A DNA stretch of 39,049 nucleotides from Sphingomonadaceae bacterium. Its GTDB lineage: Bacteria > Pseudomonadota > Alphaproteobacteria > Sphingomonadales > Sphingomonadaceae. The translations under genes and the position numbers were made by a program. The stretch spans positions 1 through 39,049 of the forward strand of contig CANGQZ010000005.1 of NCBI GenBank assembly GCA_947455865.1, given 5' to 3'. How positions within the stretch are numbered: position 1 is the first letter of the stretch; the number at the start of each line of letters is the position of its first letter. Of the stretch, positions 32,221 through 36,259 are shown one piece after another. The notes beneath the pieces are model-generated. The model was given only the letters and a program-made list of their open reading frames with translations. It did not search any database and had not been told where the DNA came from.

Positions 32221-32403
32221 CAGCCTTCCATCGTGACCATGGGTGGATTCGACCGGATTCAGACAATTCGGATCCTGCCCGGAATGCCAAGAGTGTCGGC
32301 CTCGCCAAGGCCATAATGGGCCGCCACCAGTCTCGGATAGAGGCTGTCCGTCAGCTTCCCACCCGCAGGCCGACAGCCGAAAGGCACCTTACCTCAGGAC
32401 AAC

Positions 32404-32432
32404 AAAAAACCCGGCCGAAGCCGGGTTGTTTT
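32404..32432 (-). terminator. Rho-independent terminator downstream of the tRNA-Met 3' end
   Basis: On the - strand: AACCCGGCTTCGGCCGGGTTTTTTG, a GC stem followed by T-run. Confidence 0.8.
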
Positions 32433-32435
32433 GCG

Positions 32436-32482
<47 letters not shown>

Positions 32483-32510
32483 TGGCAGTCGCAAGTGATT
32501 GTAAATACTG

Positions 32511-32550
32511 CGATATACCCGACATAAGCACGATATAACCGACACATGCG
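32511..32550. repeat. Tandem 20-bp direct repeats (2 copies)
   Basis: CGATATACCCGACATAAGCA / CGATATAACCGACACATGCG, 16 of 20 identical, between the tRNA fragment and the integrase gene. Confidence 0.75.
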
Positions 32551-32913
32551 CGGGCGTCTAGCAGGTCCCCTGCCCCGCTGGTTTGCGACGGCATTTGCCG
32601 CCTTTTGCCCCCTCTTGCTTCCACAGTGCTTACAGCCTGTCCGGCCTAGGTGCCCCAAATACCTGCTGTGATTCGAGCGGGATGCCTTCGGGCGTGCCTT
32701 GCGCCGCTCTTTAACCAACTCGCCGCATACGCCCTAGCACGCCGATTTTCCTTTTATTGCTTATTTTCAATATGTTCGTTGACTCCAAGAGCACTGATAA
32801 GCACCCGTGTTGTCGGCCAAGGCATGACCGGTCGCATCGAGGTGGGCCGCCAACCACCGAGATGCAACCTGCCTGCTACGGTCGAAAATCCGATCGACAA
32901 AAGTGACACGGAC

Positions 32914-34071
32914 ATGGCCAAGATAACCAAACGCACGGTCGAGACGGCCGCCCCTAGGGACAAGGAGTATTACATCTGGGACGAGGACATCCCGGGCCTT
33001 GGCCTGCGGGTTCTACCCTCCGGCCGCCGGCAGTATATTGTCCAATATCGCGCTGGACGGCGATCACGCCGGATCTCGCTCGGCCCCAGCACCATCCTTA
33101 CCACCGAACAGGCACGCAGCCGGGCTCTCGCCATACTTGCTGATGCCCGCAGTGGCAAAGATCCCGCTGCAGATAGAGAGGCGCGCCGAGACGCGTTGCT
33201 GGTCAAGGATCTCGCCGAGCGGTTCGACCAGCAGCACATCTCGCTGCGGATCAAGGCCAGCACCGCCAAGGGTTACAGGCGTTCGCTCGCCAAATTCATC
33301 CTGCCCAAGCTAGGGCAGATGGTGATCACGGACGTCACCCGCGCTGACGTTGCCAAGTTCCATCATGACCTGCGGCACATCCCCTATGAGGCGAACCGCT
33401 GCCTCGAAATCATCTCCAAGATGTTCAACCTGGCTGAGCTGTGGGGGCTCCGCCCCGACGGCAGCAATCCTCGCCGCCTGATCCAGAAGTACCCCGAGGT
33501 GAAGCGAGAACGGTTCCTTAGCCTCGACGAGATCAAGCATCTCGGGGACGTGCTGCGGGAGGTCGAGCAGGAGGGGCGTGAGATGCCCTCTGCCATCCTC
33601 GCGATCCGGCTGCTTCTTTATACCGGTTGTCGGCTCAGCGAGATCATGACCTTGCAGTGGGACTTTGTTGATCTCGAAGAGCGGGTATTGAACCTTCCGG
33701 ATTCAAAGACCGGCGCCAAGAAGGTGTTCCTCGGGAAGCCGGCTCGCGAACTGCTGGAGAACGCCCCTCGCCTGCCCGACAACCCATGGGTGATTACAGG
33801 GACAATACCTGGTCACCGGTTAACCGATCTACAACCGTTCTGGCAGCGCGTGCGTGCTCGCGCGGGTCTCACCGAAGTACGGATCCATGACCTGCGCCAT
33901 ACCTTCGCGTCGACGGCGATTGCTGCTGGACACTCTCTACCCATCATCGGGAAGCTGCTCGGGCATACCCAGGTGCAGACCACAGCCCGCTACGCCCACC
34001 TGGCAGCCCAGCCCGCCATGATTGCGGCGGACTCGATTACCGATGTGCTGGATCGCGCCCTGGCCGCCTGA
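32914..34071 (+). CDS. int: Tyrosine-type integrase of an integrative element
   Basis: YTGCRLSEIMTLQWDFVD, RIHDLRHTFASTAIAAGHSLPIIGKLLGHTQVQTTARYAHL (R...HxxR...H...Y). Start placed at MAKITKRTVE. Confidence 0.95.
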   Translation: MAKITKRTVETAAPRDKEYYIWDEDIPGLGLRVLPSGRRQYIVQYRAGRRSRRISLGPSTILTTEQARSRALAILADARSGKDPAADREARRDALLVKDLAERFDQQHISLRIKASTAKGYRRSLAKFILPKLGQMVITDVTRADVAKFHHDLRHIPYEANRCLEIISKMFNLAELWGLRPDGSNPRRLIQKYPEVKRERFLSLDEIKHLGDVLREVEQEGREMPSAILAIRLLLYTGCRLSEIMTLQWDFVDLEERVLNLPDSKTGAKKVFLGKPARELLENAPRLPDNPWVITGTIPGHRLTDLQPFWQRVRARAGLTEVRIHDLRHTFASTAIAAGHSLPIIGKLLGHTQVQTTARYAHLAAQPAMIAADSITDVLDRALAA

Positions 34072-34503
34072 TCAGGATTGCTTAGATGTCCAAGCGCTCA
34101 CTGCATCGGGATATCCATCCAGGAACGCATCCTCATCGATGCGTATACCCCTATAAACTATGATCTTTTCGTACTTTCGCTTTTCATATTCGAAGTACGA
34201 ATAAATGACGAAGTCGCCTCGGAGGCTCTGATTCGAGATCATTTTTCCGAATGATATGCAGTCGTCGTCTTCGTACCTGTGATCGACCGAGACCAAGTCG
34301 CGAAGAAAATTATCAGCGTCGTCCTCAGTCATTTTTCTCAATGGGAGCAGCAAATCCATGGGGATCTGCGCATCAGCAGGAAGATCGCACACACTCCCTG
34401 TAATCGCATCGGGCGGTATCCGCTCGAATAGCTTCTGCAAATCGAGCGGATCAGCCCCCCTAAGGCCTATCCGACGGCACGCTTCCCCCGGTGAAATCAA
34501 CAT
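34072..34503 (-). CDS. Hypothetical protein (143 aa) translationally coupled to Abi gene
   Basis: ATG at 34503 overlaps the Abi stop (TGTTGA); acidic N-half, C-terminal GDFVIYSYFEYEKRKYEKIIVYRGIRIDEDAFLDGYPDAV. No family recognised. Confidence 0.65.
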   Translation of the reverse strand: MLISPGEACRRIGLRGADPLDLQKLFERIPPDAITGSVCDLPADAQIPMDLLLPLRKMTEDDADNFLRDLVSVDHRYEDDDCISFGKMISNQSLRGDFVIYSYFEYEKRKYEKIIVYRGIRIDEDAFLDGYPDAVSAWTSKQS

Positions 34504-35429
34504 TGCCAGCAAGGCCTCGCTTCCCAGTTTTCGGGAAATCCCATTGACCGTTGATTGGCTGACGACCGCGAGTTGATCAAATCAGCTACCCGCTGCGGGA
34601 ATGTAGTGTCCTGGCTCTGATGCCGCAGCATATGGATCAGAGCCACGAGCGCATTGTAGATCTGGTTCGCAGGCTGATTTTGAATGCCGCTGCCAGTCTC
34701 GACCTGCCCGATAACCAGGTCGCCGCTGAATCGTTTGATCAACGGCAGCCGCTTGACGGTATGCCGGTTCCAGAGCCTGCCGTGATGCGCGCAGATATTG
34801 CGGATGTAGGAGAGCAGTTGCAGCGTACCTTCGAGCACCTCACGAGACGGCAGGCCGAGGTCCTTAGCCACCGCGCTCCTGATTTTCGGGTCTTTTGTGG
34901 CCGCGAACCAACGGGAGAGTTCGCCAAAGGTCATCAGCTCCGTGACGATCCATAACGGCGGCATGAACGGGGCGGTATATTTGCGACGGTAATGGTCAAC
35001 AAACACCTCGTTGCTATCTTTGGCCCTGTTCGCAAGGGCCGACAGCAATGCGATATGATCATAACCCGATTGGAATACCGAGGCATCCAGGTGCGCATGT
35101 GAGCCGTGAGCTAGCGCCAATCTGTTTGTCCAACGGGCCCGCAACGCGATCTCGATGCGCTCGATCGCTTCCATGATCAACAATCGCAGCTTTCGGTCGA
35201 ATACATAGATGTCGACGATCGTGTCGAATTGGAGGTCATTGGCAAACTGCTTGGACCGGGTCTGGCCATCTGTTGGCGGAACCTCGAAGGGCAACCAGTA
35301 AGCGCTGAGCCGGTAGTATCCAACCGTCTCCAACCAACGACGCATCAGCGATTGGTCGCCCTGCATCCCCCGCTCTATCAGCAGGGTGATTTGATCATCT
35401 ATCGTGGTTGGCAGTTTGTTGAAATGCAT
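34497..35429 (-). CDS. Abi family protein (Abi_2; AbiD/AbiF-like HEPN)
   Basis: MHFNKLPTTIDDQITLLIERGM...VGYYRLSAYWLPF...FDRKLRLLIMEAIERIEIALRARW...PLWIVTELMTFGELSRWF...YIRNICAHHGRLWNR (HEPN R-x4-H-like motif). Confidence 0.93.
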   Translation of the reverse strand: MHFNKLPTTIDDQITLLIERGMQGDQSLMRRWLETVGYYRLSAYWLPFEVPPTDGQTRSKQFANDLQFDTIVDIYVFDRKLRLLIMEAIERIEIALRARWTNRLALAHGSHAHLDASVFQSGYDHIALLSALANRAKDSNEVFVDHYRRKYTAPFMPPLWIVTELMTFGELSRWFAATKDPKIRSAVAKDLGLPSREVLEGTLQLLSYIRNICAHHGRLWNRHTVKRLPLIKRFSGDLVIGQVETGSGIQNQPANQIYNALVALIHMLRHQSQDTTFPQRVADLINSRSSANQRSMGFPENWEARPCWQC

Positions 35430-35520
35430 GGGGCCTCATCGACTACTCGACGAGGCCCCAAAAAGTAACCCCCCGGTGTTGGGCAAGCCGAAGCTCTAGG
35501 CCTGGGGGGTGTTGTTGCCC
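35430..35520 (-). ncRNA. Candidate structured RNA upstream of the Abi gene
   Basis: On the - strand: GGGGGGCAACAACACCCCCCAGGCCTAGAGCTTCGGCTTGCCCAACACCGGGGGGTTACTTTTTGGGGCCTCGTCGAGTAGTCGATGAGGCCCC; 7-bp outer stem, C(UUCG)G hairpin and 13-bp hairpin with one G:U only on this strand. Confidence 0.6.
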
Positions 35521-35523
35521 CCC

Positions 35524-35551
35524 ATGTATGCCCACAAATCCTAATGGTCAA
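35524..35551 (-). promoter_or_regulatory. Sigma70-like promoter for the Abi-associated RNA
   Basis: On the - strand TTGACC-16 nt-ATACAT, placing the start at or near the GGGGGG that opens the structured region. Confidence 0.5.
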
Positions 35552-35617: not shown

Positions 35618-36259
35618 TCACGGCATAGCGTCGTCCACGGACACATAAAAGCCTCGGCGATGAGACCCTCTGTAGCGAATGAGTCCGCGGTCCTTTAGCT
35701 CGGCAATGTCGCGTTTGGCAGTGCGTCCGCTCACTGCCCAGCGAGCAACAATGTCTTCGAAGGTGCAACGATAACCGCTCGCGACTCGAGCCAAGAGCCA
35801 CTCCTGGCGCTCGTTCAGCGGCACATTATTGGTGACATGCATGTCACCAATAATGTCACCATTCGTGTCACCATTAATCTGGGCACTCCGGGTAGTCTGC
35901 GATGGTGACACGGCCGCATCTGGCCGGCTGGAACTTGGCTCCTCGGAACCATCTTCCAGCGCAATGATTGGAGGTTTTATCACCTCAAGCTCTGTCAAAT
36001 GCGCCAGAACCAATTCCCGAGCGGCCTGAGATTTTACGCAAAGTCTCATTAGAAAATAGCCGCTTGGGCCAATCTCCCCGCTGAGCCAATTCTTCACGCT
36101 GCGCTCACTGGCGCCAGTCCACCTCATGATGGTTTTCACCGACCGGTGGGTCTCATCGTGCTCGAGGCGCAATGCCTCGGCAATGAGCTCTGCATAGTCC
36201 TTCGCCGACTTCGCCAGCCCGTTCCACGGGTGCAACATCTTGCCCTTTTTCGGCAACAT
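35618..36259 (-). CDS. HTH domain-containing putative transcriptional regulator
   Basis: HRSVKTIMRWTGASERSVKNWLSGEIGPSGYFLMRLC (HTH) and C-terminal winged helix FEDIVARWAVSGRTAKRDIAELKDRGLIRYRGSHRRGFY (DeoR-like). Confidence 0.75.
   Translation of the reverse strand: MLPKKGKMLHPWNGLAKSAKDYAELIAEALRLEHDETHRSVKTIMRWTGASERSVKNWLSGEIGPSGYFLMRLCVKSQAARELVLAHLTELEVIKPPIIALEDGSEEPSSSRPDAAVSPSQTTRSAQINGDTNGDIIGDMHVTNNVPLNERQEWLLARVASGYRCTFEDIVARWAVSGRTAKRDIAELKDRGLIRYRGSHRRGFYVSVDDAMP
35825..35854. repeat. Perfect 30-bp palindrome within the HTH gene
   Basis: ATTATTGGTGACATG|CATGTCACCAATAAT is exactly self-complementary; followed by further GTCACC copies. Confidence 0.9.

Follow-up and report, generated by a model that had tools for sequence, protein, structure and literature searches.

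The locus studied here raises the question of whether the inverted repeats immediately ahead of an Abi_2 gene in a Sphingomonadaceae bacterium form an RNA, and whether that RNA controls the protein encoded behind it. We addressed this question in a single stretch of DNA of 39,049 nucleotides, hereafter the window. Our data argue, with a probability that we put at about 0.9, that the locus is an AbiF (AbiD/F, Abi_2) toxin-antitoxin or abortive-infection module of a type III-like kind, in which the RNA would serve as attenuator and antitoxin with a translational lock behind it, functions that we infer from characterized relatives. The locus is a genuine and well-supported further case of a known kind, the AbiF protein with its abiF RNA. 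An initial annotation of this DNA had read the locus as an RNA-controlled HEPN toxin or phage-defense system; the best-matching Rfam family, the abiF RNAs of relatives, the literature, and covariation all support that reading, and each sequence element that it named can be read directly on the - strand at the positions collected in Table 1.

Table 1. Features of the AbiF locus and its leader, in coordinates of the window
Feature	Position	Strand	Basis or remark
AbiF toxin gene (predicted), 310 aa, Abi_2 HEPN family	34497..35429	-	catalytic R210 at 34800-34802, H215 at 34785-34787
Start codon ATG of the AbiF gene	35427-35429	-	direct reading
13-bp hairpin abutting the start codon	35430..35459	-	covariation and folding; buries SD-like GAGG at 35434-35437
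abiF-type RNA, putative antitoxin by homology: leader CAACAACA, hairpin, tail UUACUUUUU	35460..35517	-	Rfam and blind model R1
UUUUU	35460-35464	-	
Downstream GGGGGG, 3' arm of the outer helix	35469-35474	-	
C(UUCG)G	35488-35493	-	
CCCCCC, 5' arm of the outer helix	35504-35509	-	
Leader CAACAACA	35510-35517	-	
5' GGGGGG	35518..35523	-	probably untranscribed; outside the conserved RNA
-10-like region (C)ATACAT	35524..35529	-	direct reading; degenerate
-35 box TTGACC of the candidate promoter	35546..35551	-	direct reading

The AbiF protein and its genomic neighborhood

The gene product matches the Pfam family Abi_2 (PF07751) with an E value of 4.8e-55 and 187.2 bits against a curated cut-off of 25.6, is called AbiD by PADLOC (E 2.8e-65), and aligns over its full length with the Abi family protein of PDB 8VZ6 (its residues 7-300, E 5.9e-39), which is the PbAbiF-ncRNA complex (PMC12737573). 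The HEPN RNase motif RNxxxH occurs as RNICAH, in which R210 and H215 form the catalytic pair, and aligns with RNSCCH of 8VZ6; that PbAbiF carries the same residue numbers is a coincidence. PF07751 and RNICAH together bear out the expectation of an Abi_2 gene with a HEPN RNase motif, and homology identifies the window protein as a probable AbiF HEPN RNase toxin, a full-length homologue of PbAbiF with the catalytic pair kept, from a different phylum. AbiF is considered ancestral to Cas13, with its RNA a precursor of the crRNA (PMC12737573).

A tyrosine integrase gene (32650-34071, +) lies next to the AbiF unit, with a serine recombinase gene nearby. Beside the integrase gene, at about 32441-32470, is a sequence that resembles a tRNA 3' end with CCA and is a possible attachment-site remnant; ARAGORN found no intact tRNA at 32441-34071, and the window holds no second copy of the repeat. 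Because a tyrosine integrase sits beside a tRNA-like 3' end with a serine recombinase close by, the neighborhood fits a mobile island. Relatives are often plasmid-borne (408 records). A 146-aa open reading frame (ORF; 34072-34512, -) shares 16 nt with the end of the AbiF gene; we considered it as a second component and rejected it, as it matched no family and had no homologue among the loci collected. Upstream of the unit lies a helix-turn-helix (DeoR-like) ORF (35618-36259, -) with repeats of the GGTGAC/GTCACC type inside it, and homologues of its C-terminal part are found near a broken AbiF in genome G299 (L080/L082) and in L075.

Comparative evidence for an abiF-type RNA

The initial annotation had pointed to a structured abiF RNA motif, and a cmscan comparison of the region (221 bases) with 4227 Rfam families returned RF03085 (abiF) as the best family, on exactly the expected stretch and strand (35460-35517, -). 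Family, stretch, and strand therefore agree, but the score of 24.0 bits (E 0.025) falls short of the RF03085 gathering cut-off of 37 bits. Relatives of the AbiF protein carry abiF RNAs above that cut-off. On four plasmids in which an RNA with a CCCCCC/GGGGGG outer helix (the C6/G6 subtype) lies beside an Abi_2 gene, the Rfam model likewise gives no match, so it under-covers this subtype. A match to snoZ242 inside the coding region, far under its own cut-off, was dismissed as chance.

For a membership test without circularity, we collected the upstream regions of AbiF relatives and built a model, R1, from an alignment of 31 RNAs from other AbiF leaders, leaving out the window and its closest kin. 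Nearly every relative of at least about 33% identity for which upstream sequence exists has the same RNA element at the same position, and its parts follow one order: a leader AACAACA or a variant of it, a 6-bp outer helix, a GCC-type inner helix, a single-stranded CAC/CAA, a helix, and a U-rich tail. With the blind model the window RNA scores 34.4 bits (E 6.5e-8 over 81.6 kb) and is the only match in the 2.77-Mb genome. We counted R1 matches at 43 bits or more, or when they held the specific core sequence. A second match within the window (32401-32433, 21.9 bits) proved to be a plain terminator hairpin, and weak matches in other genomes at 26-35 bits (e.g., L134, L138, L140, and L142) look like ordinary GC terminators; all of these were set aside.

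Covariation across homologues, whose absence the initial annotation had listed among the findings that would refute its reading, is strongly positive for the outer helix. In the alignment of 31 RNAs this helix is 99.5% paired and has double changes in 6 of its 7 pairs, amounting to 28 double-change cells against 4.1 in shuffles (a count reached by none of 500), and the signal collapses when the partner strand is slid by one base. In the window the outer helix joins 35504-35510 to 35468-35474, that is, CCCCCC/GGGGGG with the additional pair A35510-U35468. Inside it lie a GGC/GCC inner helix (35500-35502 with 35482-35484), an apical stem (35493-35496 with 35485-35488) capped by UUCG, and the single strand CAACACC (35475-35481). 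When the predicted read-through mRNA is folded without the 5' G-run, its minimum-energy structure contains the outer helix, the inner GGC/GCC, and the UUCG-capped stem, followed by the 13-bp hairpin. The inner helix is present in the window fold, and its covariation is not cleanly aligned, with a column assignment that is only partly right (pair 16-52). The window RNA thereby fits the abiF-type layout of covarying outer helix, inner helix, single-stranded CAC/CAA, and U-rich tail, and by homology it is an abiF-type RNA, of a subtype marked by a C6/G6 helix and a UUACUU tail and overlooked by the Rfam model.

We give almost no credence to a reading in which the inverted repeats lie ahead of the Abi gene by chance and have no RNA function. 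It would accommodate the sub-threshold Rfam score and the folding energy of the first element (the abiF-type RNA), which taken alone is no better than that of shuffles (z 0.10; the region including the 13-bp hairpin is unusual, at z -3.5), but it is contradicted by the blind model with its single match in the genome, by compensatory changes far above controls in both the outer helix and the 13-bp hairpin, and by the constant position of the element in relatives. The case for the first element as a putative RNA is a comparative one, and it is strong.

The same comparison revises one pairing. The initial annotation had joined the CCCCCC to the GGGGGG on its 5' side, and folding does favor that hairpin if the 5' G-run is transcribed (-23.8 kcal/mol, vs. 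-17.5 kcal/mol for the conserved fold). The conserved partner of CCCCCC is the downstream G-run instead. At the position of the 5' G-run, relatives L056, L106, and L057 have GGTGCT, GGGGGT, and CGCGCTG, respectively, and the run is likewise not conserved in L111. We rejected the 5' hairpin on this ground; because the run is unconserved and falls between the -10 region and the expected transcription start, it probably precedes the start site and lies outside the RNA. The promoter proposed for the RNA, TTGACC-N16-ATACAT, stands in its letters and its spacer of 16, and most relatives also have a TTGA-type -35 box at a similar distance from the RNA; its strength does not hold up equally well, with a consensus match of 8/12 over the -35 and -10 boxes that 8% of shuffles reach. 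A stricter promoter scan returned no match. By consensus this is a weak candidate promoter.

Burial of the ribosome-binding site and a proposed mechanism

The 13-bp hairpin adjoins the ATG and holds an SD-like GAGG inside its 3' arm. Its one non-Watson-Crick pair reads G:U for the - strand and C.A for the + strand, just as the initial annotation had it. The hairpin occurs in a small set of seven related loci (the window, L002, L056, L106, L057, L139, and the toxin-less L111), across which it is 97.8% paired, with double changes in 7 of 13 pairs (14 double-change cells, vs. 4.8 in shuffles) and energies of -24 to -29 kcal/mol (window, -26.6). It is a clade feature, since the less close relatives L107-L109 do not have it. 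In the window the SD pairs within the hairpin with a probability of 1.0 on folding, and an SD-like motif lies in the 3' arm at a constant distance to the ATG in the window (the short GAGG) and in L056, L106, and L002 (GGAGG or AGGAGG). The hairpin buries the ribosome-binding site, as covariation and folding indicate, and by analogy with lactococcal AbiD1 it may keep translation of the toxin low.

The AbiD1 system offers the tested precedent. There, a stem-loop that sequesters the ribosome-binding site directly after a terminator lowers translation, and the phage protein Orf1 raises it 13- to 27-fold (PMC2661086). Both loci combine an Abi_2-type toxin with a terminator and such a stem-loop before the gene, and here the AbiD1-type layout, with the binding site buried between the predicted terminator and the start codon, is seen in covariation and folding. 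The two stem-loops differ in strength: that of AbiD1 is weak and AU-rich (~-9 kcal/mol) and is opened by Orf1 or by cold, whereas that of the window is GC-rich. It is conceivable, but we think it unlikely, that AbiF itself or RNase III binds or processes the hairpin instead, or that the hairpin is a leftover terminator. Covariation shows pairing rather than function, and the hairpin's absence from more distant relatives such as L107-L109 would suit such a role; against it, no U-run follows the hairpin on the - strand, and both the constant spacing of the SD-like motif and the AbiD1 precedent point to a translational lock.

In the mechanism that we propose, one promoter would drive a short RNA on the - strand, from a predicted start at about 35517 to 35460, which would fold into the abiF hairpin. 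The outer helix and U-rich tail would end most transcripts ahead of the toxin gene, as happens in AbiF relatives (PMC12373285); because the U-tract of the tail UUACUUUUU is interrupted, the efficiency of termination is uncertain. The freed RNA would then bind and block the HEPN RNase AbiF, as has been shown for PbAbiF and for C. difficile AbiF. On read-through transcripts, the covarying 13-bp hairpin would hide the ribosome-binding site and, if it behaves as in AbiD1, hold toxin translation low. If the RNA were lost, or if phage infection supplied an activating signal, the RNase would be set free and growth would cease, and the outcome could be abortive infection, stabilization of the mobile element that carries the locus, or both.

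RNA antitoxins do control AbiF toxins in the literature, as the initial annotation supposed: abiF RNA neutralizes the AbiF toxin through direct binding, and mutations that open its stem abolish neutralization (PMC12373285). The pair studied there, AbiF-Cd and RCd22 of the C. difficile prophage phi027, resembles the window in its Abi_2 HEPN toxin with RNxxxH and its upstream abiF RNA. RCd22 has its own promoter and terminator, read-through co-transcription, and action in both cis and trans, which we count as likenesses and would expect here. It differs in having two abiF motifs (~100-130 nt, vs. one motif of ~58 nt in the window); the C6/G6 outer helix is unlike RCd22, and no hairpin burying the ribosome-binding site is described for it. 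Structurally, each PbAbiF monomer binds one RNA hairpin (AbiFr), whose single-stranded bulge resembles the CAACACC of the window in architecture. Two abiF-type RNAs in tandem, as in RCd22, seem to occur at L274:1440-1545 and in L005, and in a Muribaculaceae locus (L018:496-552) an apparent second, identical core lies upstream of the AbiF-adjacent one.

Toxin-less copies of the RNA in bacteria and phages

An R1 scan of 401 genomes of the family yielded 18 RNA matches of at least 43 bits. An AbiF gene follows 13 of them, and 4 lack one (L117, L124, L128, and L133); in the remaining match (L131), only the first 37 codons of AbiF are left and transposase-like genes come next, as if these had truncated the gene. 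The surroundings are the same in L117 and L133, where an HNH-like ORF follows the RNA. L111 (L111/L136, G299) is of the window's own subtype and toxin-less, and it keeps the RNA, the second hairpin, and the ATG.

In phages the balance is the opposite, and toxin-less copies are common. After removal of duplicates, IMG/VR contains 76 distinct sequences, 22 of the C6/G6 type and 54 of a CCCGCC type, whereas a reversed control pattern has 0 matches there. Just 1 of the 76 lies with AbiF, and 71 lack it despite at least 150 nt of room, the rest being cut short; a protein search of viral contigs recovered no relative of the AbiF toxin. The C6/G6 copies (IMG/VR contigs L163-L190, e.g., L164:4891-4945, -) belong to T4-like phages, in which the RNA lies just downstream of a gp32-like gene in 22 contigs and a UvsX-like gene comes next in 21. 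Their core, AACAACA-CCCCCC-AGGC...CUCAAUACC-GGGGGG-UUACUU, is that of the RNAs on marine alphaproteobacterial plasmids (L107-L109), with a varying apical stem; part of this identity was imposed by the search pattern, and CUCAAUA was not. Searched with BLAST against isolate phages, neither the T4-like phage RNA nor the window RNA gave a real match.

The CCCGCC-type toxin-less RNAs (L191-L261 in IMG/VR, L265-L272 in isolate phages) reside in T7-like Aeromonas and Rhizobium phages, in Synechococcus myoviruses (within tRNA arrays), and in many uncultured phages, where they adjoin terminase, portal, or lysis genes. RF03085 scores above its cut-off in the isolates Synechococcus S-SZBM1 and S-CREM1; Aeromonas PZL-Ah8, PT2, and T7-Ah; Salicola CGphi29; and Rhizobium RHEph21, and it matches phage Pasto at E 3e-5. 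The genomes of these eight isolate phages contain no Abi_2 match. The S-CREM1 copy had already been reported, without a decoy interpretation (PMC9964418). Two other candidates were discarded: a Caulobacter phage RW match (L273) that neither Rfam nor R1 confirmed, and the region of phage sk1 reported to protect against AbiF, as sk1 has no Rfam or R1 match.

The phage copies bear on a further rival, in which the RNA is a cis-acting leader only (an attenuator or terminator with a translational lock) and not a trans-acting antitoxin. Its position immediately upstream on the same strand, its U-rich tail, and the hairpin that follows would all be expected of such a leader, and the C. difficile RNA does also act in cis. 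A terminator has no need, however, of the AACAACA leader, the inner helix, or the single-stranded CAC/CAA, all of which are conserved; the same core occurs in phages with no AbiF downstream and in cyanophages with no U-run; and the RNAs of relatives act in trans through direct binding (PMC12373285). We consider the cis-only leader very improbable and retain the putative antitoxin.

The AbiF module differs from ToxIN, whose toxin ToxN lies outside the HEPN RNases and whose antitoxin ToxI is a pseudoknot RNA built of tandem repeats. The ToxIN system nevertheless pairs an RNA antitoxin with an RNase toxin, and the ToxI mimic of phage phiTE, a phage copy of the RNA, permits escape from this type III system (PMC3475682), as we propose for the toxin-less abiF RNAs. 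In a literature search that took in few subscription journals, we found no paper proposing RNA mimicry against AbiF. The phage distribution of these RNAs is observed; as a candidate function, we tentatively favor, by a little over even odds, that the toxin-less abiF RNAs, those of the window subtype included, are phage RNA decoys that disarm host AbiF, which would make AbiF a widespread anti-phage system met by RNA counter-defense. Prophage remnants and phage gene regulation are the alternatives, and the CCCGCC copies near a U-run (43 of 54) could also be terminators.

The window locus adds two things to the AbiF family: a C6/G6 RNA subtype to which the Rfam model is blind, and a covarying hairpin as putative lock on translation of the toxin. 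The putative RNA antitoxin and the translational lock would constitute two layers of control that simple mutations can separate. Because phages seem to carry the antidote, their copies open to direct test the question of whether AbiF-type systems protect against natural phages.
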